A stretch of DNA of 64,000 bases from a virus, in the IMG/VR virus record IMGVR_UViG_3300043137_000362, positions 1-64,000 of that record; one strand, given 5' to 3'. Of the stretch, positions 4,264-23,647 are shown piece by piece. The notes under the pieces were generated by a model. That model had not been told where the DNA came from, did not search any database, and saw only the letters and a program-made list of their open reading frames with translations. A program made the translations under genes and the position numbers. Position 1 is the first letter of the stretch, and the number at the start of each line of letters is the position of its first letter.

Positions 4264-4728
4264 TTATTTTTTATCACAAATATCACATCCTTTAGATGTT
4301 TTTACTGATTCATTTGTAATACCTAATCTATTTTTCATTTGTTCTTCGGATATTTCACCTAACTTGTAATAACGAGAAAGAATGTGTCCCATATCTTCAT
4401 ATAACCCACCCATTCTTTGGTCTAATGAATTTGCTTCCATTGCACATTTATCAAATTCTTTACCCAATTTTTCTAACTCATTCATATTACGTTTGATGGT
4501 TACTTTATCAAACCAATCATCACCTTCATTCAAAGCAAGTGCTCTTGCTGCTTCGGTAATTCCACCTAAAGTTTCAGCAATAGTTGCTAAATCAGATTTC
4601 CTATCCATCTGTTCTTGATACTTGTTGTATGTAGATACGATTTCTAAAAAATGTTTCTTTAATTCAGATGACATCTGAGTTTGTTGTCTTTCTTCACCTT
4701 CTTTTAATATTTGTGATAATTTAATCAT
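4264..4728 (-). CDS. Probable internal head protein with capsid targeting leader
   Basis: This 154-residue helical protein begins MIKLSQILKE followed by GEE. Residues 8-10 (L-K-E) fit the cut rule of T4-type prohead protease, so the first ten residues look like a capsid targeting sequence. The rest is mostly alpha-helical, with segments such as AETLGGITEAARALALNEGDD and a C-terminal CDIC pair. I do not recognise a catalytic domain. The start has a strong AGGAG eight bases upstream. It lies directly after the 747-residue leader-bearing protein and before bS21. Packaging inside the head is inferred from the leader and the location. Confidence 0.75.
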   Translation of the reverse strand: MIKLSQILKEGEERQQTQMSSELKKHFLEIVSTYNKYQEQMDRKSDLATIAETLGGITEAARALALNEGDDWFDKVTIKRNMNELEKLGKEFDKCAMEANSLDQRMGGLYEDMGHILSRYYKLGEISEEQMKNRLGITNESVKTSKGCDICDKK

Positions 4729-4736
4729 CGATTCTC

Positions 4737-6980
4737 CTATTTTCTAAACGCTTTAATAATAGCTTGTTGGTATTTGTTTCCTTCTTTACCAACTAATGCA
4801 GTAACGAAATCCATTCTACCTTTTAAGTTTGCTGATTTGATACTTTTATAAAGTTTCATTGCATCTAATTCATGTTTTTGAATAAATGCATCAATTGCAT
4901 CAGCACGAGTACCAGTAAATACTGATATACCAACTGCTTCTTTACTTGCAGATTCGTTCATTATTCTTGTAAGTGAAGTTCTACTAACTTTACCTTCTTT
5001 AATTACCGATTGTATCTTATCTGCCATTTTGTGAAAACCATTCATTCTCAAATCAAACGCGATTGCATCGATTGCAGTATCACCACTCCATTCAGCAGAT
5101 TGTGATGCTGAAGTTCCCAATTCATCTGCATCTTTATCAGGTGTATTATATACAGAATCGTATTTGGCATTAAGAACTGTCATCTTTTCTTTATATTTTG
5201 GGTCTTTCATTGATGGATACTCAGGTTTCTCTGCCATTTCTGGTTTTCCTTCTAAATCAGCAACCAATTGTCTTGCTTCAGGGTGAAAGTTTGAATCAGT
5301 AAGTGCAGAAACTGCTGCTTGAGCCATTTTTTTCAAATATTCTTCTTTACCCAATTTCTCAGGAGTAATTCCTAATTTTTGAGCTTGTTGTCTAACTGCC
5401 TTATTTACTGCAGGAACACCTTTTCTTGATTTAGGTTCGCTTGGTTCATCTTTAGGTTCATCTGTTAAAACTAAATCTAATCGTTCCTTTGCCCATTTTT
5501 CTAATTCAGCAGTAGAATAATTATCAGTTCTAAATTTCATATCATGCTCACTTGCACCACCAATTTTTGCTAATCTCTTTAATATATTATCATATTGATT
5601 ATCACCTAAACCGAATGCAACATTTGGGTTTCTATCACCTCTTTTAATTGCGTACGCAACAGACATTGATAATGTTCCCTTCATATCATCCAAATCCATT
5701 TTAATCATTTTAGGACTTAATTTTGGAGTATTTGATTTTGGTTCTGATGTTGTTGGTTTATCAAAGATATTTACTTTTGAAGCAGTACCAGTTGATTTAT
5801 CTGATTTATTATCTTCTTTTTCAGAGTGAGTTCCTGCTTTGATTGCAGCATCTCTACTATCTTTTGATTTGAATACTGAGGTTTTACCACTCTTTTTATT
5901 TGTTGCGGTAAAAGTTTCTTCGTTAAGTAAATTTCTTAATTTCATTGATTCTGTTATACTTTTTAATTTTGTAGATTGAATTTTATTTTCGTTTTTCTTT
6001 TCTTTATTGTTAGGATTAAGAACCGATTGGACTAAATCTGCATCAGCATCAAACCCATTTATTCTTAATGTATTCGCAATTGCATCTACTGCATCTGGAG
6101 CAAAATATTTAGAGGATTGTAAAACATTAAAACTATAACTATCAACATCATCAGATGGGTTCATATAAATTGAACCATCTGCTGTATTATTTTTTATATA
6201 GTCCATTTTCTCATCATACTTAGGGTCTAATCCATATGGGTAATCTACTCTTTTTGCAAATTCAGGTTTCCCTTCAAGTGCTGCTACCAATTCTCTTGCT
6301 TCTCTACGATATTTAAATTTTAATGCCTTAACTGCTGATTGAAGCATTACTTCTCTAAACTTTTCCTTACCTAATTTTTTCAGAGTAAATCCTGCTTTTT
6401 CAGCCAATTTATTAGCTAAAGCATTTACTTTGGGGTCACCCTCTCCTCTTTTATTTTTAGGTTTTGATATTGGAGTTTTTTTAGATTTATCTAAATATTT
6501 GTCTAATACATTTGTTATATCACCAACTATATTATTTATGTCAGTATCTATTTCATCCATTAACTCATAGTCATCATCCATTTCTGCTTCGACTGAATCT
6601 GCTTCCAATTGTTGCCAATTACTATTTAATGACTTTAATTCATTAAAATCATCTTTAGAAAATATATCTTCGTTATTATCTAAATAATCATCAAACTCTA
6701 CTGAATCTCCTAAATTATCATCTATATCACTTTGGGAAATTGATTTATTAGATTTTTTAGGTTTTGATTTTGGTTTATTTGATGGTTTATCAAAGATATT
6801 TACCTTTGGAGTTTCACTATCTTTAGAATTAGAATCTCCCTTATCTTTTATAGGATTATGAGTTCCTGCTTTGATTGCAGCATCTCTACTATCTTTTGAT
6901 TTGAATACTGAGGTTTTACCACTCTTTTTATTTGTTGCGGTAAAAGTTTCTTCGTTAAGTAAATTTCTTAATTTAATCAT
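4737..6980 (-). CDS. Tandemly duplicated internal head protein with two targeting leaders
   Basis: This 747-residue protein is two related halves joined head to tail. It starts MIKLRNLLNE followed by ETF; a second copy, MKLRNLLNE followed by ETF, begins at Met346. Both leaders end in L-N-E and fit the prohead protease cut rule (after residues 10 and 354). Each half then has the same basic stretch (TATNKKSGKTSVFKSKD), a Ser/Lys/Asp-rich linker, and a helical domain with the shared elements LGKE, EARxLVAxLEGKPE and a DAIA-R-NGF region. The first 38 residues or so of each half are encoded by identical DNA, while the rest has diverged. No enzyme motif is evident. If cut at both leaders it would give two separate head-internal proteins. 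Confidence 0.75.
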   Translation of the reverse strand: MIKLRNLLNEETFTATNKKSGKTSVFKSKDSRDAAIKAGTHNPIKDKGDSNSKDSETPKVNIFDKPSNKPKSKPKKSNKSISQSDIDDNLGDSVEFDDYLDNNEDIFSKDDFNELKSLNSNWQQLEADSVEAEMDDDYELMDEIDTDINNIVGDITNVLDKYLDKSKKTPISKPKNKRGEGDPKVNALANKLAEKAGFTLKKLGKEKFREVMLQSAVKALKFKYRREARELVAALEGKPEFAKRVDYPYGLDPKYDEKMDYIKNNTADGSIYMNPSDDVDSYSFNVLQSSKYFAPDAVDAIANTLRINGFDADADLVQSVLNPNNKEKKNENKIQSTKLKSITESMKLRNLLNEETFTATNKKSGKTSVFKSKDSRDAAIKAGTHSEKEDNKSDKSTGTASKVNIFDKPTTSEPKSNTPKLSPKMIKMDLDDMKGTLSMSVAYAIKRGDRNPNVAFGLGDNQYDNILKRLAKIGGASEHDMKFRTDNYSTAELEKWAKERLDLVLTDEPKDEPSEPKSRKGVPAVNKAVRQQAQKLGITPEKLGKEEYLKKMAQAAVSALTDSNFHPEARQLVADLEGKPEMAEKPEYPSMKDPKYKEKMTVLNAKYDSVYNTPDKDADELGTSASQSAEWSGDTAIDAIAFDLRMNGFHKMADKIQSVIKEGKVSRTSLTRIMNESASKEAVGISVFTGTRADAIDAFIQKHELDAMKLYKSIKSANLKGRMDFVTALVGKEGNKYQQAIIKAFRK
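5827..5942. repeat. 116-bp perfect direct repeat, copy 1
   Basis: This block is identical base for base with 6859-6974. It encodes the second targeting leader and the residues after it in the 747-residue protein. The flanking sequence of the two copies differs markedly. Confidence 0.95.
6859..6974. repeat. 116-bp perfect direct repeat, copy 2
   Basis: This block is identical to 5827-5942. It encodes residues 3 to about 41 of the 747-residue protein, including the first targeting leader. Confidence 0.95.
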
Positions 6981-6997
6981 TTTTATTAATCCTATTT

Positions 6998-7438
6998 TTA
7001 AAATCCAATACTTACATTATCTCTATCACCTTCAACCCAACGAACTTTAAGTGATATTAACTTTTTCATTTCATCGGCTTCAAATCTATAATTACCATGT
7101 CCACCACTTACCTTCAAATCTACGATAAATCCGTGAATTCCATCAAATATAGAATTAACTTTTCCACCCAATAATTGTTCGAACGCTTTAATTTGTTTTT
7201 GTTGTTCTGGTTTTAATTCATTAAATGATACTTCAGATGCTTCGTTTAATATAGATTCAGTTAATACTTTTTTATGAGTATATAAATCCAACTTACCATC
7301 TTCTTTAATCTTAACATCGTAATTTGTTTTACGAATATCGTTATGACCACCTTTATATGGAGTATCACCAACTTCTTTGGTGATTTTACCTAATTCTATT
7401 TTATTATGTTCTAAATAATCTTGTATTGAGAATGCCAT
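6998..7438 (-). CDS. Head-module protein of unknown function
   Basis: This 146-residue protein is not recognised. It begins MAFSIQDYLEHNKIELGKIT. In the middle it carries SILNE followed by ASEVSF (residues 62-71), which fits the L-x-E cut rule of the prohead protease, so the protein may be cut into an N-terminal 66-residue piece and a C-terminal domain with KVSGGHGNYRFEADEMKKL. AAGGA precedes the ATG. It lies immediately after the protease gene, where T4-type phages keep head-assembly proteins. A packaged or core role is inferred only. Confidence 0.65.
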   Translation of the reverse strand: MAFSIQDYLEHNKIELGKITKEVGDTPYKGGHNDIRKTNYDVKIKEDGKLDLYTHKKVLTESILNEASEVSFNELKPEQQKQIKAFEQLLGGKVNSIFDGIHGFIVDLKVSGGHGNYRFEADEMKKLISLKVRWVEGDRDNVSIGF

Positions 7439-7449
7439 ATGTGTATTCC

Positions 7450-8043
7450 TTATGCTAATTCAGTAATAATTTCTCTCATAAGGTCTTGTGCCTTACAGAA
7501 ATCACCACATACTACTGCCTGTTCTTGTAATTGTTTATTTACAGATTCTTGTAATGGTGTCATAAATGCACCATGTGTAGATGGATTGGATACGAAATCC
7601 CAACCAATTAATTCAAAATCTTCACCTACTTTTACTTTACCCTCACCCATTGGTGATACTGAACCCATACCACGAGATGAAATTCCTAAAAGGATTCCTG
7701 CTCTTAATAATTCTTTTAAGATATTGCCTGATGGAGTTGGTAAGATTTCAACTGTCCCACACAAATCATTACCTTCCCAATGGATTTCCTTAATGTTATG
7801 AGAAACGTTCTTTAAATTGATTACAGATGAATCTGGATGGTCTAATTCTCCTAACGCTCTTCTTTCTTTAATAAGAGTTTCATATTTCTGTGCTTCTCTT
7901 CTTAAAATTTCCATCGGATATACTCTACCATTTTGATTTTCGGCACCAGCACGTTGTAGAATACCCTTTACAAGAGTTCTTCCACCTTCATCCTCATTTA
8001 CCTTACCTTCAAATAGGTTAGTTTCTATTAATAATGATTTCAT
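7450..8043 (-). CDS. gp21: Prohead core maturation protease, T4 gp21 type
   Basis: This 197-residue serine protease should remove scaffold, cut the capsid protein and trim leader-bearing internal proteins after L/I-x-E. The family signature is clear: GRVYPMEILRREAQKY, then the catalytic histidine in GELDHPDSS (His69), NVSHNIKEIHWEGNDLCG, and the serine region GISSRGMGSV (Ser122/Ser123), followed by GWDFVSNPSTHGAF. This order of blocks is that of T4 gp21 and related U35/S80-type proteases. LLIE at 4-7 could be a self-processing site. AAGGA lies upstream of the ATG. It is located between the portal group and the scaffold and capsid genes, as in T4. Confidence 0.93.
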   Translation of the reverse strand: MKSLLIETNLFEGKVNEDEGGRTLVKGILQRAGAENQNGRVYPMEILRREAQKYETLIKERRALGELDHPDSSVINLKNVSHNIKEIHWEGNDLCGTVEILPTPSGNILKELLRAGILLGISSRGMGSVSPMGEGKVKVGEDFELIGWDFVSNPSTHGAFMTPLQESVNKQLQEQAVVCGDFCKAQDLMREIITELA

Positions 8044-8058
8044 ATCTATCCTTTATAA

Positions 8059-8532
8059 TTATTTTAATTTTAAACTGCGTTGTGCATTAGTTAAACCATC
8101 AATAATTGATTGTAATCCTTTTTTAACACCATCAGTATCTCTATCTTTAACTCTTTTATCTAAAATTTTTGTATTTGCTTTTAGAAAGTTAATGATTGCG
8201 TTTTCGGTTGCACCCCAATTAATATCTTCTTCATTTATAGATTCATCTGCTTTTTTACCAGCTCTTAAATCTGCTAAATCGTCACCACTAATATCACCAT
8301 CACCATCAACATCTAATTCTTTTTGGCCACCAACTAATTCTTCGTTTTTCTCACCTTTACCATTCCATGCGGCATCGATTTTATCAAAAAACGCTTTCTT
8401 TTCTTCATCAGACATAGATGGAATTGATTTTCCAGCTTTATCTAATGCTTTCTGAAAGAATGCTTGGTATTCGTTTTCTTCGGTTAAAACCTCTCTAACG
8501 ATTTTCTTAAATTGTTCTTTTGTGATTTTCAT
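8059..8532 (-). CDS. Probable internal head protein with EF-hand-like calcium loop
   Basis: This 157-residue protein starts with a longer leader, ending VREVLTE (residues 12-18) followed by ENE; L-T-E fits the protease cut rule. Residues 20-56 form a helical domain (FFQKALDKAGKS then SDEEKKAFFDKIDAAWN), a type I associate with phage head regions. Residues 74-87 (DVDGDGDISGDDLA) have the spacing of Asp residues expected for an EF-hand or dockerin-type calcium loop. ESINE at 97-101 is a second possible cut site. AGGAG lies upstream of the ATG, and the stop overlaps the neighbouring gene by one base. Calcium binding is inferred from the loop alone. Confidence 0.7.
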   Translation of the reverse strand: MKITKEQFKKIVREVLTEENEYQAFFQKALDKAGKSIPSMSDEEKKAFFDKIDAAWNGKGEKNEELVGGQKELDVDGDGDISGDDLADLRAGKKADESINEEDINWGATENAIINFLKANTKILDKRVKDRDTDGVKKGLQSIIDGLTNAQRSLKLK

Positions 8533-9815
8533 TATTTTTCTATCTCCTGCAATGTTCTTGCTATGTTGATTATACGTTCTTTTATCTTATAAATATGTGA
8601 ATTTGTTCTTTTCCAATATTGATTTGAATCTAATTCATTCATTGTTTTGATTTGATTATACCAACGGAAAAACTTTTCAACTTCACTTAATTGATTTTTT
8701 AATTCTTTTAAACCAACTGCTAGTTTTTTATTAGCATGCATAGAATCATCATTTTTTAATTCTAACCAACGATTTTCATTAATTGATTCCAATTTAAGAT
8801 ACTTACCTTTGTTGTAATCACCCTCAATAGTATCAATTATTTTTTGAATTTCGATTTTTTTAGATGAATTTGATTTATTTCTAGTATCTTTAAGTTTATT
8901 TATTACTTTGATTGTCAAAAGTTTTGCATCTTTTGGTTTTTCATAAGTTTTAACCTGTTTGATAATATCGTTTAAGTTATATTCATTAATTGATTCGTTA
9001 AATCGTCTTCTATCTTCCATCGAATCCCATTTTATACCATTTATTAAATCATCCATAGATTTGAACATAGGTGAATTGATTATTTTACCTTCTAAGTAAT
9101 ATTCACCGGATAAGTTTTTCTTTACTTTGCCAGTTCCAATTACTTGCCAAAAGTTTCTACTTACTCCTTTGGGAACAATAAAATCAATTATATTACCAAC
9201 ACCTTTGATTATTTTTAATTTTTGGTCTTTGGTTATTTTTGCTAATGAAGTAGTTGCTGGAATCCCATCCAAACCTTTGAATTGTTTTTCGGTAATCACC
9301 ATTTCACTTATCGATTCTAATATTTTTGAAGATTTTTCAATAGTTAATATAGTATCAGGGTGAGTAGTCACTCTAAAACCAAAGTTTGGAGTTTCTTTAA
9401 TACCCGAAAATTTATCTTTTAACGATGGGTGTGAAACAAATACACCACCTGGTAGATTATGTATAATGCTTCCTTTTGGTAAAACTACACTATGATAGTT
9501 TCCAATTTGAGCACCCTTTACATCTTTCGTTAATTGATATTTTTTATTATCTAAATGAGTTATAGTTCTACCAGAATTACCAGATACAAATGTTGTAGAT
9601 GCTTCATTTACTGATTCAACTTTACCAACTAACTGCATACCCAATTGAGTTGCAATTTTCTTTTTACGTCTTTTTGTTGCATCACTTCCATCAGAAAACG
9701 CATTTGGAGTTTCGTATCCTGCAATATCACCGGTAGCAGTTGCTTCATCTAATTCTTGTTCGATTTCTGCAATTACTTCATCAATATATTTTTTAAGAGA
9801 TTCGGCTTTTAACAT
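8532..9815 (-). CDS. Head-module structural or core protein with repeated protease-like sites
   Basis: This 427-residue protein contains LDE followed by ATATGDIAGYETPNAF at residues 22-40, the same LDE-ATATG string that forms the probable cut site of the capsid protein. After it comes a basic patch (TKRRKKKIATQLG). Further I/L/V-x-E strings recur (VESVNE, ILESISE, ESINE twice). Residues 75-160 look like a beta-rich domain and the C-terminal half is mainly helical. I do not recognise an enzyme. AAGGA lies upstream of the ATG. The start overlaps the previous gene by 23 bases. A role as a cleaved core or internal protein is inferred from these sites and from its place between portal and protease. 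Confidence 0.7.
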   Translation of the reverse strand: MLKAESLKKYIDEVIAEIEQELDEATATGDIAGYETPNAFSDGSDATKRRKKKIATQLGMQLVGKVESVNEASTTFVSGNSGRTITHLDNKKYQLTKDVKGAQIGNYHSVVLPKGSIIHNLPGGVFVSHPSLKDKFSGIKETPNFGFRVTTHPDTILTIEKSSKILESISEMVITEKQFKGLDGIPATTSLAKITKDQKLKIIKGVGNIIDFIVPKGVSRNFWQVIGTGKVKKNLSGEYYLEGKIINSPMFKSMDDLINGIKWDSMEDRRRFNESINEYNLNDIIKQVKTYEKPKDAKLLTIKVINKLKDTRNKSNSSKKIEIQKIIDTIEGDYNKGKYLKLESINENRWLELKNDDSMHANKKLAVGLKELKNQLSEVEKFFRWYNQIKTMNELDSNQYWKRTNSHIYKIKERIINIARTLQEIEK

Positions 9816-10671
9816 TTTTTATTTCCTTTATAAGTTCAAATCCCATCATTAACGCAGAAACTTGTTCATCGGTAATTTTTTTACCAAACTTTTGATTCTT
9901 TAAGACGTTAATAGTTTCTTTTAATTTTATCTTTGTAATCTTATCATCCATTGTTGTATAAATGGAATGTAATTCAGTTACAACATTTTTTAATTCGTTG
10001 GAATAATATTCACCAAATTTAGAAGTATTGGTTACGTTATTAATGTATTCTCTTAATAATAATTTTTGAGAATCATTTAGATTTGAATATTTTTTATTAA
10101 AGGTTTCAACCAGAATCTTATAAGTAAGTAATCTTAAATCTTTTTCTTGTTTCTTATAATCTTCAACTAATTTATCTTCTTTTTGTTTCAAAGATGGAGT
10201 TGATGTAGATACGTGTTCTACTAATGTAAGTTTAGAATCGAATACATCTTTTACATCCAATACATTTGTTGCTTTTGCCTCAAATAATTTATGAATTGAT
10301 GCAAGAACTTTGTAATTCGTTACTGGTGATGATAAGAATGAATCTATTTCAAAATTTTCTTTTATCGATTTAACTAAACTATATTTTTGTTTAGCCAATT
10401 TTTGCTCATCTAACTTTGTTCTAGCATCTAAGATAGCATCAATAAATTTTTCTGCTTTAGTTTCAGAATTATATTTTTCATTTATTAATAAATTAAATAA
10501 ACGAAGTTCTTTAGCCAATTCTGTTCCATTGCCAAAAAATTCAGATACGATGTTTTTTGCCTTCTCCGGGGAATTATTTAAAATTTCCAAAGTTATTTGA
10601 CGAGTTAATAGTTCGAATAGAAAACCCGTATTCTTAAATTTTGAATGTTTTATTTTTTTCATTTTACTCAA
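9793..10671 (-). CDS. Conserved-looking portal-adjacent helical protein, function unknown
   Basis: This 292-residue protein is almost entirely alpha-helical and rich in Lys, Glu and Leu. The N-terminus reads KIKHSKFKNTGFLFELLTRQ, a pattern I associate with proteins next to the portal gene in marine T4-like phages, though I cannot name a function. No membrane segment, catalytic motif or targeting leader was seen. AAGGA lies upstream of the ATG, and a TATATTTATA motif lies 31 bases upstream, so it probably starts a transcript. It immediately follows the portal gene and may serve in prohead initiation, which is inference from position. Confidence 0.65.
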   Translation of the reverse strand: MSKMKKIKHSKFKNTGFLFELLTRQITLEILNNSPEKAKNIVSEFFGNGTELAKELRLFNLLINEKYNSETKAEKFIDAILDARTKLDEQKLAKQKYSLVKSIKENFEIDSFLSSPVTNYKVLASIHKLFEAKATNVLDVKDVFDSKLTLVEHVSTSTPSLKQKEDKLVEDYKKQEKDLRLLTYKILVETFNKKYSNLNDSQKLLLREYINNVTNTSKFGEYYSNELKNVVTELHSIYTTMDDKITKIKLKETINVLKNQKFGKKITDEQVSALMMGFELIKEIKNVKSRIS

Positions 10672-10702
10672 ATCCTTATTTTGATATACTCAAAAACTCT
10701 AT

Positions 10703-10712
10703 TATAAATATA
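10703..10712 (-). promoter_or_regulatory. Late-promoter candidate between portal and the 292-residue gene
   Basis: Coding-strand TATATTTATA, 31 bases before the next ATG, in a 58-base gap that holds no gene. Confidence 0.5.
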
Positions 10713-10729
10713 AAATTTTTTATGATTGA

Positions 10730-12463
10730 TTAATTTTGCGTGTCATCGATGATATTAGTCTCATCTAACATACCTTTTTGTTCTGCTAAAAATTTACGTT
10801 TTGCTGCAATCCCATTGATATATTGTAATGCACGGTCTTCAGATGTTCTGTGTTTTAATGCATTTTTATTTTCTTTATCACCTAATGGGTCTCTACCAAA
10901 CGGAGATTTATCTTTACCATAGGTATTTCCTTCACGTGGTCTTCCACCTTTATTTGTAAGTTCGGTTTTGATTTGTTCTAAACTTTCCTCAACATCAGTT
11001 GGTTCGGATTCCACTGCTGGGTCATTGCCCTGATTCTCAATAGAATTATAACGGAATCTATCTTTAATATCTTCGATGATTTTACCTCTTTCACGAGTTT
11101 GATCACCTTCGGCCATTTTAAAGATGTTTTCATAAATCCAATCTTTACTTAACATATTCAATCCTTGCATATCTTGTGCTAATCTAACTTTTTCTGACCA
11201 AAGATTTACTTTCTCTTGTTCATAAATTGTTGAAGGATTAACTAATTGCAATTCAAAGTTAGTCATTTCAGAATCTGTAATACCTTGTGCGTATAAATGC
11301 ACGATTGCTATTTTAGATAATTCAGAAACTACCGTTCTTTGGATTCTTTCAATTGTTCTTGCGAAACGAACATCTTCGGCTGCAAGAGTTGCTTTACCAT
11401 TTACATTCTCATCATATCCCAAATATGCTTTTGGAATTTTAAGTGCTGCAAATAATTTAGATTTTAAGTATTCAATATCATCGATTGCAGCATAATCTAA
11501 TCCTGCAAGGTTTTCAATTGAAGTTCCACTATCACCACCTCTAACCGGTAAGAAGAAATCTTCGGTAAGGTTTTGCATATTATACTTTAAGTTATAATCG
11601 CCACTATTTTTATCAACGAAAGGAACTTTCTTCATTTTGTTGATAATTCTTTGCATGTAATTATCTACTTCAGTTGGTGGAATGTTTCCTATATCGATTT
11701 TAAACACTCTTTTTTCAGGTGCTCTCATAATACGATGGATTAACATCGCATCTTCCATTAAACTCAATTGTTTCCACAATCTTCTACCATTCTCAATCAT
11801 TGATTTACCATATGGTAACCAGTTTGTATCTGCTAATAAACGGAAATGTGCTATTTCGAAATTATCATACTCAACTTTACCATTTGGGTCTTCAGTAATT
11901 TTAAATTTAACTACATTTGGATTATGGGGGTCTTGTCCTTCTAATCTTTCTGTGTTATATACTGAATGAGGGGTTACGTTTACAATACCTTTACCTTCGG
12001 CAATTTCTAATCCTAAGAAAAAATCACCATACTTAACCATATTACGAACCCATGGCCATAAGTTAAACTCTACGTTAAGAATATCGTAGAAAAGGTTGTC
12101 TAATACTTCTTGTACTTTTTGATTATCAGAACGAATGGTTAAAATATCACCAAATTCGTTTTTAAGTGTAGATTCATCTGCGTATATATCTAAAGCAGAT
12201 GCTAGAATTGGGTCACAATCCATTGCATCATAATCTCTAAATACTTCCCTGCGAACTTGTTGGTATGCCATTGATTGTGCACCACCTGCTTGTTCAAAGA
12301 AAGATTTTTGAATTTTAGTGTATCTATCTCTTAACGATGATAGATTGGTCTGTTGTCTTTCATCGGCATCAAAGACCGTTCTCTTACCATCTTTATCAAC
12401 AGTCACAACTGCCTTAGATTGAAAGAGTTTACTTAATCTGCCAAAAAACGAAGTATCCGCCAT
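10730..12463 (-). CDS. gp20: Portal vertex protein, T4 gp20 type
   Basis: This 577-residue protein should form the dodecameric portal through which DNA is packaged and leaves the head. Characteristic blocks in order are REVFRDYDAMDCDPILASAL, ALDIYADESTL, WPWVRNMVKYGDFFLGLE, HFRLLADTNWLPYGKS, LMEDAMLIHRIMRAPEKRVF, and LKSKLFAALKIPKAYLGYDE, all typical of T4-like portals. The C-terminal 100 residues are hydrophilic and include a GGRPREGNTYGKD segment. Length is close to T4 gp20 (524). The ATG has no Shine-Dalgarno sequence, only an A/T-rich leader, unlike several neighbours. It follows a leader-bearing internal protein and lies downstream of the terminase, as expected apart from missing sheath and tube genes. 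Confidence 0.95.
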   Translation of the reverse strand: MADTSFFGRLSKLFQSKAVVTVDKDGKRTVFDADERQQTNLSSLRDRYTKIQKSFFEQAGGAQSMAYQQVRREVFRDYDAMDCDPILASALDIYADESTLKNEFGDILTIRSDNQKVQEVLDNLFYDILNVEFNLWPWVRNMVKYGDFFLGLEIAEGKGIVNVTPHSVYNTERLEGQDPHNPNVVKFKITEDPNGKVEYDNFEIAHFRLLADTNWLPYGKSMIENGRRLWKQLSLMEDAMLIHRIMRAPEKRVFKIDIGNIPPTEVDNYMQRIINKMKKVPFVDKNSGDYNLKYNMQNLTEDFFLPVRGGDSGTSIENLAGLDYAAIDDIEYLKSKLFAALKIPKAYLGYDENVNGKATLAAEDVRFARTIERIQRTVVSELSKIAIVHLYAQGITDSEMTNFELQLVNPSTIYEQEKVNLWSEKVRLAQDMQGLNMLSKDWIYENIFKMAEGDQTRERGKIIEDIKDRFRYNSIENQGNDPAVESEPTDVEESLEQIKTELTNKGGRPREGNTYGKDKSPFGRDPLGDKENKNALKHRTSEDRALQYINGIAAKRKFLAEQKGMLDETNIIDDTQN

Positions 12464-12498
12464 ATTTTTTTATTTTAATTTATAACCTTTTATTTTTT

Positions 12499-12975
12499 TT
12501 ACCATTTTCTACAAGACCAATAATTTGCTTTATGTCTTGGTCCAGGATTATCACAATTCATTCTTGCTCTAAATGATTTTCTAGCAGCAGGATTTGATTT
12601 TCTGATTTTCATTCCTTTTTGTCCGAAATTCACTTTAACTACATTTCCTGCAGGATTTTTTACATATACTTTAAATTTTTTAACATCACCTTGCATTGGT
12701 TTACCCAATTTTACTTCTCTACCTTGATATTCTGCTTCATTAACACAATTACAAGTAGATTCTTTTAGTTCTGTTGTATAGTTTTTTAAAAAATCTAAGA
12801 AATCTTCTTCATCCTCATCTTCTACATCATACTCATCGTATTCATCATCGATTGATTCGTTTTTTGATGGGACACAATTTGGAACTTCCTTTCCATTTAG
12901 CATTTTCATGCCAACTTGTTTGTATCCTTTCCAACACGGTGATTCTTCGTTCAATAGTGTTTGTAATTTTATCAT
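12499..12975 (-). CDS. Internal head protein with targeting leader and Cys/Trp-rich C-terminal domain
   Basis: This 158-residue protein begins MIKLQTLLNE followed by ESP; L8-N9-E10 fits the prohead protease cut rule, so the first ten residues look like a capsid targeting sequence. After the cut comes a small Cys/Trp module (PCWKGYKQVGMKMLNGKEVP, then NCVPS), a very acidic linker (residues 42-63), and a basic C-terminal domain with FKVYVKNPAGNVVKVNFG, SFRARMNCDNPGPRHKANYW and a final SCRKW. I associate these modules with T4-like phages but cannot name a function. Basic Arg and Lys clusters suggest nucleic-acid contact. AGGAG and a TATATTTATA motif precede the ATG. It lies between terminase and portal. 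Confidence 0.75.
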   Translation of the reverse strand: MIKLQTLLNEESPCWKGYKQVGMKMLNGKEVPNCVPSKNESIDDEYDEYDVEDEDEEDFLDFLKNYTTELKESTCNCVNEAEYQGREVKLGKPMQGDVKKFKVYVKNPAGNVVKVNFGQKGMKIRKSNPAARKSFRARMNCDNPGPRHKANYWSCRKW

Positions 12976-12992
12976 AATTTTCTCCTATACAC

Positions 12993-13002
12993 TATAAATA
13001 TA
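12993..13002 (-). promoter_or_regulatory. Late-promoter candidate upstream of the 158-residue head protein
   Basis: Coding-strand TATATTTATA, 17 bases before the ATG, with AGGAG between motif and start. The gap is 44 bases. Confidence 0.5.
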
Positions 13003-13019
13003 TAAAACTAATTTATTAC

Positions 13020-14600
13020 CTATTTAATCAACCAAGTCAAATCTTCGTTTCTATCACCCACTCTCATTTGCCAAGGATTTTCATCTAATGATGAATTGCC
13101 ACCGAAACCATCTAATGTGAATGAATGTTGTTGGATTCCACCGATTGCCATTTTAGTTAAATCAACACCTTCTTGTCTTAAACGAAGTGCAGTATCTCTA
13201 ACCCATAATCCAATACCCAAAGACATCACCAAGTCATCATTATAACCTCTCATTGCCTCTGCACGATTACCAACCCATATAAATGTAAATAGTTCCTCTA
13301 TCAATCTCGATGAACGAATTGTTACGGATTTTTCTCTGACGTAGTCTTCTAATTTAGAAATAATCAAAGGACGAGTTTTAGATGTAGTAGAAAATCCTGC
13401 CACCATACCTCTTTCTTCTGCTCTGAATTTATTATGTAATTGATGTTGAACATCTACATACTTTAAATCCTTACTCATATAAAAAAGATTGCGGTATCCT
13501 CTATCAATTACTTGTTGAATTACTGCCCAACCAATATTAGCATTCTCTATTACTAAAAGTGCCTCATTATATTCAGTTGCAAGTGCTACTAAGAAATTAC
13601 CAAAATCTTTAGTATCCATTTTTCCTTTATATTCTGCTACTTGTGTTGCAGTTTCAATATCAAACACATGACATGCAGAGTAGTCACCACCATCTCCACG
13701 AGCAACGTCCGCTACAACCATATATCCTTTGTTGTAGTTTGGATATTCCCATTTCCATAGGTTAGAATCCCACCCAGTCTTCTCAATTGGTTCTTGAACA
13801 TAAGTTTCCTTATAAAACATAAGTAACTCCGGATCGATAACCGTATCACCGGAACTTACAAAGTCACAATCACATTCTTGTGCGGCACCCTTTGGTCCTA
13901 ATAATCTAGCTTGCTCATCTCTCCAACTTTGATCTCTTTCTGGGTGAACTGACCAGTGTAATCGAACGGTATTAAAATCGTTTGTTCCTTCTTCTGCACC
14001 TACCCACGTTCTATGAAAGAAATTACCCACACCATTAGGAGTAGATAGAATAATCGCACTACCACCCGTTGATAGAGTAGATTGTGCAGAAATCCAAATT
14101 TCTTCAATATTATCGATGAAGGCTGCCTCATCAAATACTAATAAGGATAGGGCTTCAGAACGACCAGCATCTCCAGAAGATGAAGTTGCCTTTGCTTGAG
14201 AACCATTTGCATATCGAAGGGAAAGTTTATTATCTTCTACCGTATCTTGTTTCAACCAACTTGGTAGGTATTGATTCATTACTCTGATTTTGGTAATTAA
14301 GTTTTTTGCAACTTCTTGTTTCGTTGCAATTACCAATACGTTGTAATCTTGATTAAATAACATCTTCCAAAGGGAAAATCCCGCAACCAAAGTAGAAATA
14401 CCTGTTTGACGGGATTTTAATACGATGTTATATCGATGGTCTTTGAATTCTACTAAAGTTCTATCCTGAAAAGGAAATAAATGAAATGGAATTTTTCCTC
14501 TAACTGGGTGCTGAATCATACAATACTTTTTCATAAAGTATATTGGGTCAGCAGCACATTTAGAATACTCTAATTTAATTATATCTTTTAAAGATGCCAT
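13020..14600 (-). CDS. gp17: Terminase large subunit, T4 gp17 type
   Basis: This 526-residue protein is the DNA-packaging motor and nuclease. The ATPase domain shows an adenine-binding FPFQ region, Walker A KSRQTGIST (62-70), Walker B LLVFDE (153-158) and the coupling motif STP (186-188). The nuclease domain shows its first acidic residue in MVVADVARGDGGDYSA (Asp298), then VIENANIGWAVIQQ and NDDLVMSLGIGLWV with the late acidic pair. It is shorter than T4 gp17 (610) mainly at the N-terminus. No Shine-Dalgarno sequence precedes the ATG, and the stop of the upstream spanin-like gene is only a few bases away. A separate small terminase was not identified. Confidence 0.96.
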   Translation of the reverse strand: MASLKDIIKLEYSKCAADPIYFMKKYCMIQHPVRGKIPFHLFPFQDRTLVEFKDHRYNIVLKSRQTGISTLVAGFSLWKMLFNQDYNVLVIATKQEVAKNLITKIRVMNQYLPSWLKQDTVEDNKLSLRYANGSQAKATSSSGDAGRSEALSLLVFDEAAFIDNIEEIWISAQSTLSTGGSAIILSTPNGVGNFFHRTWVGAEEGTNDFNTVRLHWSVHPERDQSWRDEQARLLGPKGAAQECDCDFVSSGDTVIDPELLMFYKETYVQEPIEKTGWDSNLWKWEYPNYNKGYMVVADVARGDGGDYSACHVFDIETATQVAEYKGKMDTKDFGNFLVALATEYNEALLVIENANIGWAVIQQVIDRGYRNLFYMSKDLKYVDVQHQLHNKFRAEERGMVAGFSTTSKTRPLIISKLEDYVREKSVTIRSSRLIEELFTFIWVGNRAEAMRGYNDDLVMSLGIGLWVRDTALRLRQEGVDLTKMAIGGIQQHSFTLDGFGGNSSLDENPWQMRVGDRNEDLTWLIK

Positions 14601-14605
14601 TTAGT

Positions 14606-15016
14606 TTATTTTAATAAAAATAAAGTAGTAGTTATAACACCGATAAACGTTCCAACTTTATATAAAAAAGTAGTTCGTCTAACTTGCTTTATTTCTTTTA
14701 TTAAATCTTCAGATTTGTTTCGTTCTAATTTAAATTGTTCATCTTTTTGTTTGATGATATAATCTAAATTTGTCACTTTAGAGTTTAGAACTGAAATTAC
14801 ATTTTCTTTTAACACCAATTTTTGATTGGTTAATTCAAGTACCTTTTCAGTTTCTTCTAATTGTTGGATTGCTCCATCACCTCTAAGTATATCCTTAATT
14901 ACTAGCTTTGCCACCGGAACTTTTAGCGGAACTATCGAGTCCGTTTTCGTAACGGTTTGAGAAAAACTGGTAAAGGTCATGGATAGCATAATTGTCAACG
15001 TTATTAACTTTCTCAT
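14606..15016 (-). CDS. Secreted coiled-coil protein, possible spanin partner
   Basis: This 136-residue protein has a cleavable-looking signal peptide (residues 1-20) ending in SFSQ, a type common in flavobacterial exported proteins. A coiled coil (about 50-110) and a C-terminal hydrophobic stretch (about 115-135) follow. It has no lipobox cysteine, so it is not a classical outer-membrane spanin. Its first 122 bases lie inside the end of the preceding gene in another frame, an arrangement typical of Rz/Rz1 lysis gene pairs. AAGGAAG precedes the ATG, which supports this start. A role in disrupting the envelope at lysis is inferred from the overlap and topology; an unrelated envelope role is equally possible. 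Confidence 0.65.
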   Translation of the reverse strand: MRKLITLTIMLSMTFTSFSQTVTKTDSIVPLKVPVAKLVIKDILRGDGAIQQLEETEKVLELTNQKLVLKENVISVLNSKVTNLDYIIKQKDEQFKLERNKSEDLIKEIKQVRRTTFLYKVGTFIGVITTTLFLLK

Positions 15017-15278
15017 TTGTTTCTTCCTTTATTGTTGTTATTTTTTTGGTTACTACTGCGATATTCTTATCAATTACTACAACTTCTTGATGTAGTTTAT
15101 TGATATGTCTATCCAATTCTTTGTTGACTAACACTACCGAGTCAACTTCGGTTTGAATACTATCAATCTTCGAATTATAACCATCAATATCCGTTCTCAA
15201 CTGCTTAGTGAAAAAGATATTATATCCGGCTAACCCAATAATGACTAATAGTAAAATGGTTGATTTAATGTCTCTCAT
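14895..15278 (-). CDS. Membrane-anchored coiled-coil protein, i-spanin-like
   Basis: This 127-residue protein has a short N-terminus, one membrane helix (STILLLVIIGLAGYNIFF, about 6-23), then a long periplasmic-looking coiled coil (about 33-90) and a hydrophilic tail with IHDLYQFFSNRY. That layout matches inner-membrane spanins of the Rz type. Its 3' end overlaps the next gene by 122 bases in a different frame, as in embedded Rz/Rz1 pairs. An AAAAGGA sequence lies upstream of the ATG. No endolysin or holin gene was recognised nearby, which weakens the lysis assignment. Confidence 0.65.
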   Translation of the reverse strand: MRDIKSTILLLVIIGLAGYNIFFTKQLRTDIDGYNSKIDSIQTEVDSVVLVNKELDRHINKLHQEVVVIDKNIAVVTKKITTIKEETNEKVNNVDNYAIHDLYQFFSNRYENGLDSSAKSSGGKASN

Positions 15279-15292
15279 AAATTAATCCTTTT

Positions 15293-15952
15293 TTACAAAT
15301 AATGTTCATAATTGTTTTTTCTTATAACCTCAAACGCTTCGTTACGTTTATCTTCTATTTCCTTTAATTCAATTTCACCATTTTCGATGAATTCTTTGAT
15401 TTCTTTTTTGATTTCATCCACCGATTGTGGTAATTCCCATTTTTCAACTGAACCATCTTCATTGATGTATTCATAAAATGGTTTAACTTCATCTAAAGAT
15501 TGTCTGATTTGTTCTAATTTGATTTTACCCTCAATAATCATACGAGTGTAAACTTTATAGTCCTGATATTCTTGCCAAATTCCTTTTAACTTAATGTCAG
15601 TTTCTATTTTTGCTAAACAATCAATACAATAACCTGTTTTCTGTATTAGTTTAAAATCTGTTTTAGATTTTTTAACTCTTTTACATTCAATGTTCTTACA
15701 TTCTTTTTGTTCATTTAACCATTTTCTAATATCGTTAAATGCTTCAGAATTTTTACCAGTTTTTAAAGTATAACCTTCTTTCTTTTCGTAACGATTATAT
15801 TCGTCTTCCCAAACATCACCAACCTTACGTTCTATTGTTTCAGGAGTATAACCAATTTGAGTAGTTTTTTCATAATCACCACCACTCATAACCATATCAA
15901 CCAACTTTCTACGAGTTGGATGCATAAATTTCTTTTGGAACTCTTTTGCCAT
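15293..15952 (-). CDS. Zinc-binding-like protein upstream of spanins and terminase, function unknown
   Basis: This 219-residue hydrophilic protein begins with HPTRRKLVDMVMSGGDYEK. Two cysteine pairs, Cys85/Cys90 and Cys109/Cys112, could bind a metal ion. Residues 60-80 read GYTLKTGKNSEAFNDIRKWL, and the C-terminal third is a charged helix ending NNYEHYL. I do not recognise the family with certainty. Its position just before the terminase makes a DNA-packaging role conceivable, and T4 has its small terminase gene there, but the sequence does not show a small-terminase pattern to my eye. No Shine-Dalgarno sequence precedes the ATG. Confidence 0.6.
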   Translation of the reverse strand: MAKEFQKKFMHPTRRKLVDMVMSGGDYEKTTQIGYTPETIERKVGDVWEDEYNRYEKKEGYTLKTGKNSEAFNDIRKWLNEQKECKNIECKRVKKSKTDFKLIQKTGYCIDCLAKIETDIKLKGIWQEYQDYKVYTRMIIEGKIKLEQIRQSLDEVKPFYEYINEDGSVEKWELPQSVDEIKKEIKEFIENGEIELKEIEDKRNEAFEVIRKNNYEHYL

Positions 15953-16029
15953 AATTTTTATATATTAGGTTCTTTATTCTAATATATATACATATATTAA
16001 AACTAAAAAATTAATATTTTTTTAAAAAA

Positions 16030-19000
16030 TTAGTAAAATATTCCTAATAATTGGTTCAATGAAGCAAAACTACCAGTTAATTTAAAAGTTTTACCATTAT
16101 ACACAAATACAATACCTTCAATTGGAACAATCTTATCAACTCCACCTACTGCAGATAATCTTCTCAACTCTAATTTTAATTTTTCAATCTTTTTAGGGTC
16201 ACCTGATTTCTTAACATCACTAATAGTTTGGTCTAATCTCTTTTTCATATCTCTAACAGCCTTGTCTGGATTAACAGTCAATACTGATGATGTAAATGAA
16301 AGAACTTCTGCACCCACTCCTAAGAAAATATCTTCAAATTTCATTAAATTTTCTTTAGTGATTTTTCCTTGGTCTTCTTTATCAATTTTAGTAGCCCAAT
16401 CTAACACTTTAGTATCTGTTATATTTTTAGCATCTATTCTAAATCCTTTATCACCAAACGCCCATCTCTTCACTAATCCCATTTTAGTATTATTATCTAA
16501 CTTTAATGGTGATTTTTTATCTACAAAGTTTTCCCACCATGCTTGATGATATTCAGCAACACCTGCAGTATCTCCCAACCCAAATTCTTTTTGTAATTTA
16601 GAGATTTTCGAATTGTATTCACCTTTTTTAGATGAAAGATTTTGTGATTTTGGTAATGATAGAACCGGTGGTCCTTGTAAAGTATAATTAGCCTGAACGT
16701 TTTGTTCTACTTGCTTAATCATACCACCCAAAATCTTACCAGATTGTTGGTCTTCTCCAATCGCGTTACCTTCCATATCATATTCCATTGTTCCGTGGAA
16801 TACTAAAAGAGGTTGACCATATGGAATTACATTGACTGAGGTTGGGTATATTACCTCAATGTTCATAAAACATGCACCATTCTTAAAAATCTTATCTCTT
16901 TGTTTTTCAGAAAGTGCTTTTATAGCCTTACTAAGGTCTTGCATTGCAAAGTTGTAAGCTTTCTCTAATTCTCCCCTACCAGTAAATTTATCCGCAACAC
17001 CTTTTATATCTAATGCACCTGCACCTCTATTTTTTAAGTGTCCTTTATTACGAGCAGCAACTAATCTTCCACCTACCCAACTAATTGCAAGTGCTTGCCC
17101 ATCAGTTTTCTCTCTAGCAAGTTCTAATTCACCATCTAATGCACGGTTTACAATATCTTTAAGTTGTCCAAAGGTTAAATTAATATCAGTATCAAATGGA
17201 TGATTCATATGACCATATGCACCACCTTCATTTATAAATGATTCTTTTACTGGTTCGTATCCTCTGTTTTTCTTATCTTTTTTATTCGTTTGGTGACCTA
17301 CTTTATTATCTGCATCATCAAAATCAATAGTATCTAACTCTGCAGGGTATCCCATATCAGGTGTATAACTTGAACTTTTGTGATGTTTGATAAAATTTCT
17401 ATCAATTCTCGAATCTGCTTTATGGTTTTTTGAATTTATATTTTCAAATGCAGATGGTGATTTTATTTTTCGCCATCCACCTGCAAATCGAAATATTCTT
17501 GCTGGTATTTCTAATATACCATTTGATGGTAATTTACTCAAATACTTTTTATCAATATTAATTACCTTAGTAATAAACGCATTCTTTTTATTATCTGCAC
17601 CAACTAATTCTACTTCAATTGGAACTACTACTCCACCTATTTTAAGATTACCAGCAAATAATTGTCCTTTTGTAAATCCTTCTGCTAATTTATCTTTTGA
17701 ACTTTGGATTGGGTCTTTAAATCCATATTTTAAAATACGATTATATTTTGATGTCTTATCATGATCATGATTATGGATAGGTAATACTTGATCGGTTGAT
17801 TTTTTCTTTTCATATTCAGATGGATTATCACTATATGTTGTCCAACCTTCTAAATTATCTAAATAGTAATCTTGAGTATCATAATCACTCCAATCATCAT
17901 TCCATGAATTACCAGTTGTTGCGTTTCCATCGTTTTGGAACGAACCCCCCATTGCACTGATTTCAGATATAGTATCTTCAGTTTCAATAGTAGCAAGTTT
18001 AGTATAATACTTAGGGTCTTCATATAAATGATCCATTGCAATTTCTTCAGCAATTTTTCTATCTGAAGTGTGTTCCATTTCTACTTTAATACCAATCTGT
18101 AATTGATTTGATAATTCATCAATATCACAATTATGATAATTTGCTATATCATATAAATTCATACCAGTAGATTTGCCACCAGGAATTTTATCTTCAATTG
18201 TTAAAGTTTGATTTGTTGATTTGAAATCACCCTTTCTCATTACCGTTTTAGCAATGATATGGTTGGATTGTTTAACAAATGGAATATTTATATCGTTTCT
18301 TTTATCTTTAACAACAATCTGATGGAACTTTTCTAAGAATTCTTTAAATTCCTTTTTATGACGTGCTAATCTTTTGAAAAACCCAGTCAATTCTGCATCC
18401 GAAATTTCTTTTCCATTTCTAGCATCATTAACTCTATCAAAGAAATGATTTGTAAATTCAATATCTTCGGGTGATAATTGTTTCTCTGCGTATTTTTCAA
18501 CCTGATTTAATTGTGACTTACTCATTTCATTTTGTTGGATTTCCAACTCTTCATCAATCATTTCCTTAACAACTTTACTGAAATCACTTAGATATTTTTC
18601 ACTAACTGATTGTTCTTCTTTCTCACCTTCACTTTCGTAAGTCATAATTGATTTTTGAAGAATATCACTTGGTATTTTCATTTCTTGCATATTTTTAGCA
18701 ATCAATTCACCAAATTTCTGTAAATACATTTCTTCGTTTTCTTCATCTACACCTGCAAATATCGCAGCCTTGCCTATTCCCTTCAAAATAGTTTCACCAA
18801 CTACGTGGGGAATTAATTCAATTGCAACGTGTTTTCCAAATGCAAGTGCTCCATGTGATGCTCCACCTGTCACTGCTCCAAATAGAGCAGTTGTGGCTAC
18901 TTTTATAGCAATTGCTTTTAAAGCCTTTTTATCTTCATCGGTTAATTTTTCTCCTTTGAAGAATTTTGTTGCACCAACTCCTGCCTCTTTAAATTCTTTA

Positions 19001-20730
19001 ATTTCGTGTTGTGCAATCTTTTTAATTGCTTGAATTGCTCCTTTAGTTTTATCGGCAATCATTTCACCAATAGTTCTACGAACTTCGGAATTTGGTCTTT
19101 GTTGATTTTTAGTAAAGAATTCTTTTTCTTTTTCAGCCCAACCACTAATTTTTCTTTTTAAATTTGTAATGCTGTATTTACTTACATCAGTTTTTTTAGA
19201 ATCAGAATTTTCGTATTGGAAATCACCATCGTAATTAATAATTTTTACGGGTAATTTTTTACCACTTGCAGTAAATGACATTAAACGAGTATTTCCTGCT
19301 AATAAATGTAATTGGCCTGAGTTGTCTTTTAATACAATTGGAGATGGAACTGCATTTCCTTTTGCAATACCTTTCTCTAATCTATCCCAATCTTTACCAT
19401 ATTTAATAGCACGTTCTTTACCCAATTTTAACATTGCATCCTTACCACCATTTTTACTTGCAGATAGAATATCACCCATATCAGAGTTATTCATATTTTG
19501 CATTTCTTCAGATGATAAATAAACCGGTTTTGCATCTTTAATTTGTTGAATCATATCAGATTCATCGGTAAATGCATTTGGTGCAACTTTTTTAGTCACT
19601 TCATTATCAAAATATTCACTAGTTTCACCTTGAAGTTCTTCATCGGTGTATTTTCTAATGTTTTTTACTTTTGATCTAGGGTCATCTAATATTTCCCACC
19701 CATCCTTACCATCAGTCCAATCTTTATTAGTTGGTTCGGTAGTTGTTGGTTGTTTAACATTTGGATCATGAGCGAACATCTTTGCCCCTTTAACTGCAGT
19801 TCCCTGCGGAGTATCTTGTTTAGGTTCGTTTGTTTGAGTTTGTGATTGAATATACTTACCACTATCATCTTTGGTAAACGTAGGGGATTTATCATCATCT
19901 TCCTTACCTTTTAATTTGTATCTACCATACCCAATATGAGTATATTTAGCATCTTCATTCTCATCTTCAAAAAATATCTGTGTTCCTTCTTTAATCATTC
20001 TAAATGTCACTACTTTTTTACCATTAATAGTTGGCATACCATGTTCATCAGTTCCAATGGTTTTAACAACAACTTTTTTGTTCTTAAATTTACCCATCAA
20101 AAGAGTATCACCTACTTCAACCGGTAAGGTTATTGCTTCTGTTAATTTATCTGAAATTAATTTAAATATTTGTTTATTGAATTTTGGATATGCAGTATCG
20201 GTAAAGAAGTTTTGTTTTTGATCTTCTGAGCCATTACTTAATCCGATTCTCACATCAGTTCCACTAATTGAACTTAATGCAGGTGAAACATACACATATC
20301 CTTTGGTTTTATATCCTTCAGTTGGATGTCCATCCCATTTAGCAAAATACTTACCACCCAATCTACTACTATCCTTTTCACCAACTACCGTTACAAATGC
20401 AGTTGTTTCCTCATCGAAATTTTTAAGTATTTCCGTTGGAGCATATGGATTTTTAACTTCAACTATTTTGTTTGATGGAATGCCAAACATAGTTGTCATT
20501 ATTTGTTTTTTTTCTCTAAAATTAAAGGGTGATTTTGGCTTTTCGGTTTTATTAGATGTTCCGATATATACACTATCTTTTCCAAACTTTTTTACAAGAT
20601 TTGAATACGTTGCGTAATGGCCTTTATGAAATGGTTGAAATCTACCCACATAAACGACAACTGTCTTTTTTATGGGAGTAGATTCCTCTAATAATATTTG
20701 TTCTGCTAAAAATGTAGATAATGTGCTCAT
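16030..20730 (-). CDS. Giant head-packaged multi-enzyme: NMNAT-like domain plus ligase-like nucleotidyltransferase
   Basis: This 1566-residue protein begins MSTLSTFLAE followed by QILLEE; L8-A9-E10 fits the prohead protease cut rule. Residues 22-200 are a cytidylyltransferase/NMN-adenylyltransferase-like domain with GRFQPFHKGH (29-38) and SISGTDVR (154-161). Residues 460-485 resemble a ParB-type fold (PIVLKDNSGQLHLLAGNTRL). Residues 610-660 are Gly/Ala-rich and hydrophobic, possibly membrane-interacting. FINE followed by GGAYGHM at 1165-1175 is another possible cut site, just before a C-terminal nucleotidyltransferase of the ligase superfamily: motif I KTDG (Lys1208), FMNIE (Glu1292), EGIVF (Glu1538) and KLTGSF (Lys1550). 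GAGG precedes the ATG. Delivery into the host with the DNA is inferred. Substrates are unknown. Confidence 0.85.
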   Translation of the reverse strand: MSTLSTFLAEQILLEESTPIKKTVVVYVGRFQPFHKGHYATYSNLVKKFGKDSVYIGTSNKTEKPKSPFNFREKKQIMTTMFGIPSNKIVEVKNPYAPTEILKNFDEETTAFVTVVGEKDSSRLGGKYFAKWDGHPTEGYKTKGYVYVSPALSSISGTDVRIGLSNGSEDQKQNFFTDTAYPKFNKQIFKLISDKLTEAITLPVEVGDTLLMGKFKNKKVVVKTIGTDEHGMPTINGKKVVTFRMIKEGTQIFFEDENEDAKYTHIGYGRYKLKGKEDDDKSPTFTKDDSGKYIQSQTQTNEPKQDTPQGTAVKGAKMFAHDPNVKQPTTTEPTNKDWTDGKDGWEILDDPRSKVKNIRKYTDEELQGETSEYFDNEVTKKVAPNAFTDESDMIQQIKDAKPVYLSSEEMQNMNNSDMGDILSASKNGGKDAMLKLGKERAIKYGKDWDRLEKGIAKGNAVPSPIVLKDNSGQLHLLAGNTRLMSFTASGKKLPVKIINYDGDFQYENSDSKKTDVSKYSITNLKRKISGWAEKEKEFFTKNQQRPNSEVRRTIGEMIADKTKGAIQAIKKIAQHEIKEFKEAGVGATKFFKGEKLTDEDKKALKAIAIKVATTALFGAVTGGASHGALAFGKHVAIELIPHVVGETILKGIGKAAIFAGVDEENEEMYLQKFGELIAKNMQEMKIPSDILQKSIMTYESEGEKEEQSVSEKYLSDFSKVVKEMIDEELEIQQNEMSKSQLNQVEKYAEKQLSPEDIEFTNHFFDRVNDARNGKEISDAELTGFFKRLARHKKEFKEFLEKFHQIVVKDKRNDINIPFVKQSNHIIAKTVMRKGDFKSTNQTLTIEDKIPGGKSTGMNLYDIANYHNCDIDELSNQLQIGIKVEMEHTSDRKIAEEIAMDHLYEDPKYYTKLATIETEDTISEISAMGGSFQNDGNATTGNSWNDDWSDYDTQDYYLDNLEGWTTYSDNPSEYEKKKSTDQVLPIHNHDHDKTSKYNRILKYGFKDPIQSSKDKLAEGFTKGQLFAGNLKIGGVVVPIEVELVGADNKKNAFITKVINIDKKYLSKLPSNGILEIPARIFRFAGGWRKIKSPSAFENINSKNHKADSRIDRNFIKHHKSSSYTPDMGYPAELDTIDFDDADNKVGHQTNKKDKKNRGYEPVKESFINEGGAYGHMNHPFDTDINLTFGQLKDIVNRALDGELELAREKTDGQALAISWVGGRLVAARNKGHLKNRGAGALDIKGVADKFTGRGELEKAYNFAMQDLSKAIKALSEKQRDKIFKNGACFMNIEVIYPTSVNVIPYGQPLLVFHGTMEYDMEGNAIGEDQQSGKILGGMIKQVEQNVQANYTLQGPPVLSLPKSQNLSSKKGEYNSKISKLQKEFGLGDTAGVAEYHQAWWENFVDKKSPLKLDNNTKMGLVKRWAFGDKGFRIDAKNITDTKVLDWATKIDKEDQGKITKENLMKFEDIFLGVGAEVLSFTSSVLTVNPDKAVRDMKKRLDQTISDVKKSGDPKKIEKLKLELRRLSAVGGVDKIVPIEGIVFVYNGKTFKLTGSFASLNQLLGIFY

Positions 20731-23636: not shown

Positions 23637-23647
23637 TCAATTTTTAT

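Follow-up and report, generated by a model that had tools for sequence, protein, structure and literature searches.

The locus raises the question of why several proteins encoded within the head genes of a virus begin with much the same ten residues, and what becomes of these proteins during particle assembly. We analysed a stretch of 64,000 nucleotides (the window) from a 91,323-bp virus contig that carries a T4-like head module on its minus strand. The initial annotation had described five leader-bearing ORFs of 154, 747, 158, 1566 and 157 aa, and these lengths and leaders agreed exactly with the ORF list of the window, in which all five lie on the minus strand. It had also placed a gp21 homologue in the same module, and this gene was recovered as a Peptidase_S77 (S77) protein. 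Terminase, scaffold and capsid were named by sequence together with the annotated gene order in Microcystis phage Mel-JY01 and Flavobacterium phage immuto. The features of the module are as follows, with a slash marking each candidate cleavage position.

1035–2663, minus strand: major capsid protein, gp23-like; predicted cut LLDE/ATATG after residue 61
2690–3748, minus strand: acidic scaffold-like protein in the gp22 position, by position and composition; many candidate sites
4264–4728, minus strand: 154-aa protein; leader MIKLSQILKE at 4699–4728
4737–6980, minus strand: 747-aa tandem protein; leader MIKLRNLLNE at 6951–6980
6998–7438, minus strand: 146-aa protein; internal site ILNE/ASEV at residue 66
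7450–8043, minus strand: gp21-type prohead protease; Peptidase_S77 (PF03420), Pfam E 1.3e-26; phrog_207, E 2.7e-51
8059–8532, minus strand: 157-aa protein; 18-residue leader MKITKEQFKKIVREVLTE, ending VLTE, at 8479–8532
8532–9815, minus strand: 427-aa protein; site LDE/ATATG near the start
10730–12463, minus strand: portal protein gp20; Pfam Portal_T4, E 5.8e-69
12499–12975, minus strand: 158-aa protein; leader MIKLQTLLNE at 12946–12975
13020–14600, minus strand: terminase-like protein
16030–20730, minus strand: 1566-aa polyvalent-like protein; leader MSTLSTFLAE (residues 1–10) at 20701–20730

Other genes were observed in and around the module. A bS21-like ribosomal protein gene (3954–4217, minus strand) adjoins the scaffold gene, and its syntenic counterpart in Mel-JY01 is annotated RpsU. 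Between the head and tail genes lies a long stretch (20871–37167, minus strand) of sugar-nucleotide epimerase, glycosyltransferase-like and other carbohydrate genes. Elsewhere on the contig (L001, 74515–76239) a 574-aa protein has a start that, by reading of its sequence, resembles a NodU/CmcH-type carbamoyltransferase. No RNA families were found in the window.

All four ten-residue leaders have hydrophobic residues at positions 4, 7 and 8 and Glu at position 10. The strict register M-x-x-h-x-x-h-h-x-E occurred on 4 of the 87 minus-strand ORFs of the whole contig, where the rate at internal Met residues predicts 0.23 matches (P 9e-5), and all four were among the 18 ORFs of the head region, below 21 kb (Fisher p 0.0014). 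The initial annotation had proposed a search of N-termini in related phages. For this search 342 related loci were gathered with the protease, the 154-aa protein, the C-domain of the 158-aa protein, the leader domain and the ligase domain. The register was present at 114 of the 1,481 N-termini of their non-redundant ORFs (7.7%) and at 18 of 6,949 internal Met residues (0.26%; p 5e-68). As the loci were picked through this module, 7.7% is not a genome-wide rate, and the test lies in the contrast between positions and residues. When Glu10 was replaced in the pattern by Asp or Lys, the same ORFs gave 11 and 18 matches, and moving Glu to position 9 or 11 gave 14 and 31, compared with 114.

The same register is found in T4, where ipII and ipIII start with MKTYQEFIAE and Alt with MELITELFDE. 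Capsid targeting sequences of the T4 type are N-terminal and span 10–19 residues. Mutational analysis of IPIII showed that residues 4 and 7 act mainly in targeting and residues 8 and 10 in processing, which is blocked by Asp10 (PMC9026906). The capsid protein encoded here has a site of the corresponding type, with hydrophobic-hydrophobic-x-E/[AST] near residue 61 in all 33 relatives; the T4 gp23 propeptide is 65 residues long (PMC9026906). With the match to the IPIII register, an S77 protease and its capsid protein site all present, the proposal of a T4-type targeting leader followed by a gp21-type cleavage site is well supported.

A rival reading takes the leader for an uncut N-terminal helix that serves assembly alone, anchoring its protein to the scaffold or the portal, with no part in delivery. 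The 154- and 157-aa genes do adjoin the protease and scaffold, where T4 has core genes 67 and 68, and these two tagged proteins may serve in the core or in assembly and not as injected effectors. However, a docking helix does not account for Glu at exactly position 10 (114 matches versus 11 for Asp) when positions 8 and 10 are the processing determinants in T4, and the NMN-adenylyltransferase-like (NMNAT-like) and ligase-like domains of the largest protein would be odd as assembly parts. We regard a role in assembly alone as highly improbable. It could also be argued that the leaders arose simply by duplication of genes, or that they stem from AT-rich sequence around the start codon that favours translation, as the first 12 bases (ATGATTAAATTA) are identical in two leaders and the 747-aa protein is itself an internal duplication. 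Against this, comparison of the mature parts places the 114 leader proteins in at least 13 unrelated families (41 at 50% mutual coverage), the matches on the contig are restricted to the head region, and neither the specificity for Glu10 nor the hydrophobic register is a nucleotide effect. This explanation can practically be set aside, and cleaved leaders of the T4 type are preferred. Single-linkage clustering of the mature parts was replaced by the coverage-limited clusters, as modules common to many mature parts caused nearly everything to merge.

Within the leader set, one protein has a match to AAA_33/Zeta toxin, and a leader-tagged protein of the relative L173, whose contig also has a divergent polyprotein copy, has a P-loop kinase-like start. 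The capsid protein of cyanophage S-BM3 has LTE/A, and no strict ten-residue leader was found on the late genes inspected in its head region. Flavobacterium phage immuto (L004, 2586–20681) has many small genes upstream of terminase with similar amphipathic starts, e.g. MKKSQLRQIIKE, MISIYNILKE and MENFDLKKFLVE. In the open-access literature we found no previous description of leaders of this kind from this phage group.

Although the five proteins listed initially are real, the list was incomplete, as the 146- and 427-aa proteins bear matching sites further in; the internal leader copy of the 747-aa protein and sites of the same type at internal module junctions of several proteins had also been missed. 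Shorter relatives of the 146-aa protein (62–72 aa) comprise its N-terminal part only. The octapeptide LDEATATG is common to the 427-aa protein and the capsid maturation site, and the two proteins look otherwise unrelated. In the 157-aa protein, the FFxKALxKAGKS module is preceded by hydrophobic-x-Glu (hxE) in 33 of 33 occurrences. A homologue of the 154-aa protein adjoins the protease in Mel-JY01.

A natural control for these sites was provided by the 158-aa protein, in which two segments of opposite charge follow the leader.

12736–12945, minus strand: acidic middle of the 158-aa protein, net charge −13
12502–12735, minus strand: basic C-domain, net charge +16, preceded by the site VNE/A

The C-domain follows hxE in all 48 non-redundant copies from the related loci and in all four named phages with S77 (HTVC008M, C48C1, Melnitz and immuto). 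In ten phages without detectable S77, it is either free or lacks the site: nine of them (Aegir, Kolga, HTVC111P, HTVC202P, HTVC026P, HTVC106P, CRP-901, CRP-2 and CRP-235) encode it as a short stand-alone protein lacking a leader of this kind (an example starts MAKYQGRTVKLNKP), and in CRP-6 it is fused without an hxE site. Thus, the predicted mature product of the 158-aa protein corresponds to the whole protein of phages that lack the protease. AlphaFold gave no usable model of this C-domain (pLDDT 45). We did not count the CWKGY module as junction evidence because it failed the S77 control: hxE stands in front of it in the haloviruses HRTV-4 and BLv36, which lack S77, while S-RIM14 has S77 and no hxE there. 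In these two haloviruses (L351 and L367), which are archaeal tailed viruses, a short CWxxYxxVG...VPNCVP module lies near the start of large hypothetical proteins.

The 747-aa protein contains a second copy of the leader, SMKLRNLLNE, at residues 345–354, which divides it into the following parts.

5949–6950, minus strand: unit A, between the leader and the internal leader
5919–5948, minus strand: internal leader, second copy
4995–5918, minus strand: unit B, after the internal leader and followed by a spacer
4740–4952, minus strand: C-terminal module, after the spacer

Its hxE sites whose P1' residue is small or polar number five (residues 10, 344, 354, 662 and 676), and all of them fall on unit boundaries; with any P1' residue allowed, there are ten sites, five of them within units. 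A weak MC1-like match was below the cut-off, and a tblastn search against named phages gave no match. Internal leader copies could in principle be translation starts yielding separate proteins from one ORF with no polyprotein to be cut. The copies do start with Met, and T4 gp21 has an internal start (PMC9026906), but no clear ribosome-binding site was found upstream of the internal leaders, and most fused relatives of the 1566-aa protein have no Met at the junction with the ligase-like domain yet keep LxE/GGAYG. Internal initiation is therefore very unlikely, and cleavage of a longer product remains our preferred reading.

In the 1566-aa protein, a hypervariable middle separates an N-terminal NMNAT-like domain from a C-terminal RNA-ligase-like domain.

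Residue 15, minus strand: second site, ILLE, after the leader
20308–20661 (residues 24–141), minus strand: NadM-like nucleotidyltransferase domain; Pfam CTP_transf_like, E 2.6e-6
20137–20145 (residues 196–198), minus strand: candidate site LTE/A, preceding the ITLPVxVGD module
17980–18150 (residues 861–917), minus strand: DUF5661 in the hypervariable middle; Pfam E 3.5e-13
17227–17238 (residues 1165–1168), minus strand: candidate site FINE/GG before the RNA-ligase-like domain
16033–17226 (residues 1169–1566), minus strand: RNA-ligase-like C-terminal domain; KxDG and EGxVF invariant

The N-terminal domain matches the NMN adenylyltransferase of PDB 2qjt (E 1e-7) with GRFQPFHKGH aligned, and by this family match and the N-terminal nucleotide-binding motif it is classed as NadM-like. 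For the C-terminal domain, no Pfam match was obtained and a sequence search of the PDB gave no credible match. Its catalytic motifs are invariant in 26 sequences (K1208, D1210, G1211, R1227, E1292, E1538, G1539 and K1550), including the KxDG lysine, EGxVx and the motif V lysine. The best 31 PDB matches of its structural model (pLDDT 82) were all nucleic acid ligases, nearly all of them RNA ligases and among them an archaeal RNA ligase and T4 Rnl1, with weak scores (best E 3e-3, TM ~0.2). Homologues range from 741 to 1999 aa because the middle is so variable. In 4 of 28 relatives the middle contains a tRNA nucleotidyltransferase (phrog_2244, best E 2.5e-60), and HD or GNAT domains occur in some. 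Three ligase-family polyproteins (L249, L346 and L338) have a tRNA nucleotidyltransferase (PolyA_pol head) and an HD domain inserted in the variable middle. No embedded peptidase was found in the 1566-aa protein; a phrog_87 metalloprotease is present in 1 of its 28 relatives. Being large and multidomain, with variable enzyme domains in a late phage context, the protein resembles the polyvalent type. It is paralleled by a 650-aa protein of Methylophilales phage Melnitz-3 (L354, 514–2466) with the leader-like start MKKFSEIIE, an NMNAT-like domain and CWDTH and YWAC modules.

Among 38 distinct sequence contexts before the ligase-like domain, P1 was Glu in 37 and P3 was Leu or Ile in 38, while P2 was free and the upstream sequence variable. 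An hxE was present within the nine residues preceding the domain in 97%, compared to 27% and 3% further upstream. In five loci (L276, L278, L147, L279 and L333) a separate 414-aa gene encodes the domain behind a leader of its own (e.g. MIRLHKILNEVLLKEGGAYGHM), and three fused relatives (L315, L337 and L339) retain that leader internally. The ITLPVxVGD module also follows hxE in 8 of 8 occurrences. At BLAST-defined module starts in ligase-bearing proteins, hxE was found at 34.5% versus 15.4 ± 2.4% at random positions, and hxD was not enriched. Module boundaries in the remaining ORFs, a mixed set including other head proteins, were also enriched (34% versus 21%), indicating that the boundary signal is not specific to leader-bearing proteins. 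The AGYxTP, NCPTD, YWSC and FTGTR modules had a high hxE background further upstream as well, and none of four HFxxRVND module starts had hxE.

The main alternative accepts T4-type leaders cut at Glu10 and holds that internal hxE sites arise by chance or from linker composition, so that the large proteins would be packaged and act as single polyvalent proteins. There is a precedent in the polyvalent-type virion RNA polymerase of N4, which is packaged uncut (PMC5512222). Moreover, the hxE motif carries little information, and Glu is abundant in head proteins, linkers included. Linker composition does not readily explain why the 38 junctions conserve Glu at P1 and Leu/Ile at P3 while P2 and the upstream residues vary, why the model shows disorder in the residues preceding the ligase-like domain, why whole leaders are kept internally, or why phages lacking S77 encode the C-domain of the 158-aa protein as a protein in its own right. 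This alternative is unlikely. The explanation that we favor, and consider probable, is that T4-type leaders and gp21-type processing extend to internal sites at which polyvalent-like proteins would be cut in the head.

According to this model, the leader, through its hydrophobic residues 4, 7 and 8, would bind the prohead core and draw the protein into the assembling head. The gp21-type protease would then cut after hydrophobic-x-Glu, as predicted for the capsid protein at LLDE/A, and free the mature protein; the sites are present in the sequence, and cleavage is predicted from them. Since the same sites separate modules in the larger proteins, the protease would cut the 747- and 1566-aa proteins into several products within the head, and in the 158-aa protein it would free the basic domain from its acidic propeptide. 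The products of the 1566-aa cargo would be an NMNAT-like and an RNA-ligase-like enzyme, together with variable pieces from the middle. By analogy with T4, the mature proteins would be packed with the DNA in the virion and delivered at infection, some of them entering the host.

The use of this cargo is a matter for conjecture. Its domains are in line with known phage NAD and RNA-repair systems (PMC9503650, PMC7824862), and we would guess at early counter-defence by NAD restoration and/or RNA repair. As the largest cargo resembles enzymes strung between cut sites, one particle may bring in a small enzyme kit. The wider proposal, that a large aquatic T4-like group uses leader-loaded polyproteins, cut at their junctions by the prohead protease, to bring a kit of exchangeable NAD- and RNA-repair enzymes into the host at infection, is offered tentatively and may well not hold. 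On the favored reading, the T4 internal-protein mechanism extends to abundant, mostly uncultured aquatic T4-like phages, and the sequence rule allows candidate head cargo to be picked out from genome sequence alone. Cleavage at the internal sites, if it occurs, would make the prohead protease a polyprotein protease as well, and new counter-defence enzymes might then be sought in the variable middle of the large cargo.

Both the leader mechanism, from T4, and virion-borne multidomain polyvalent proteins (PMC5512222) were known already; prohead protease sites at polyvalent module junctions, internally retained capsid targeting leaders and gp21-cut polyproteins were not found described in the open-access literature. 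The system resembles T4 IPI, IPII, IPIII and Alt with gp21 in its ten-residue leader with hydrophobic residues at 4, 7 and 8 and Glu10, several unrelated cargos, an S77 protease and a similar head-gene order. It differs from T4 in that the leader is M-I-K-L-x-x-L-L-x-E, the genes for the cargo are located within the head module, internal copies of leader and site are present in apparent polyproteins, and the cargo has NMNAT-like and RNA-ligase-like domains. The polyvalent proteins of phages and conjugative elements (Iyer et al. 2017, PMC5512222) are likewise very large, multidomain, variable, encoded in late clusters and predicted to be head-packaged early effectors, but they were proposed to be released by embedded peptidases, whereas the sites described here fit a separate prohead protease, with a T4-type leader for entry. 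In the giant phages SPN3US and phiKZ, a prohead protease also removes N-terminal propeptides (A-x-E or S-x-E) of head and ejection proteins, sometimes at several sites; their propeptides, however, are mostly longer than 100 residues, and no description of enzyme strings cut at module junctions was found for these phages in the literature consulted. Finally, the ligase-like and NMNAT-like domains, together with the tRNA nucleotidyltransferase of some relatives, recall T4 tRNA repair (Rnl1/Pnkp) and phage NAD salvage (NadM/NadR/NadV). T4 produces its repair enzymes after infection, whereas the enzymes encoded here would travel in the head.
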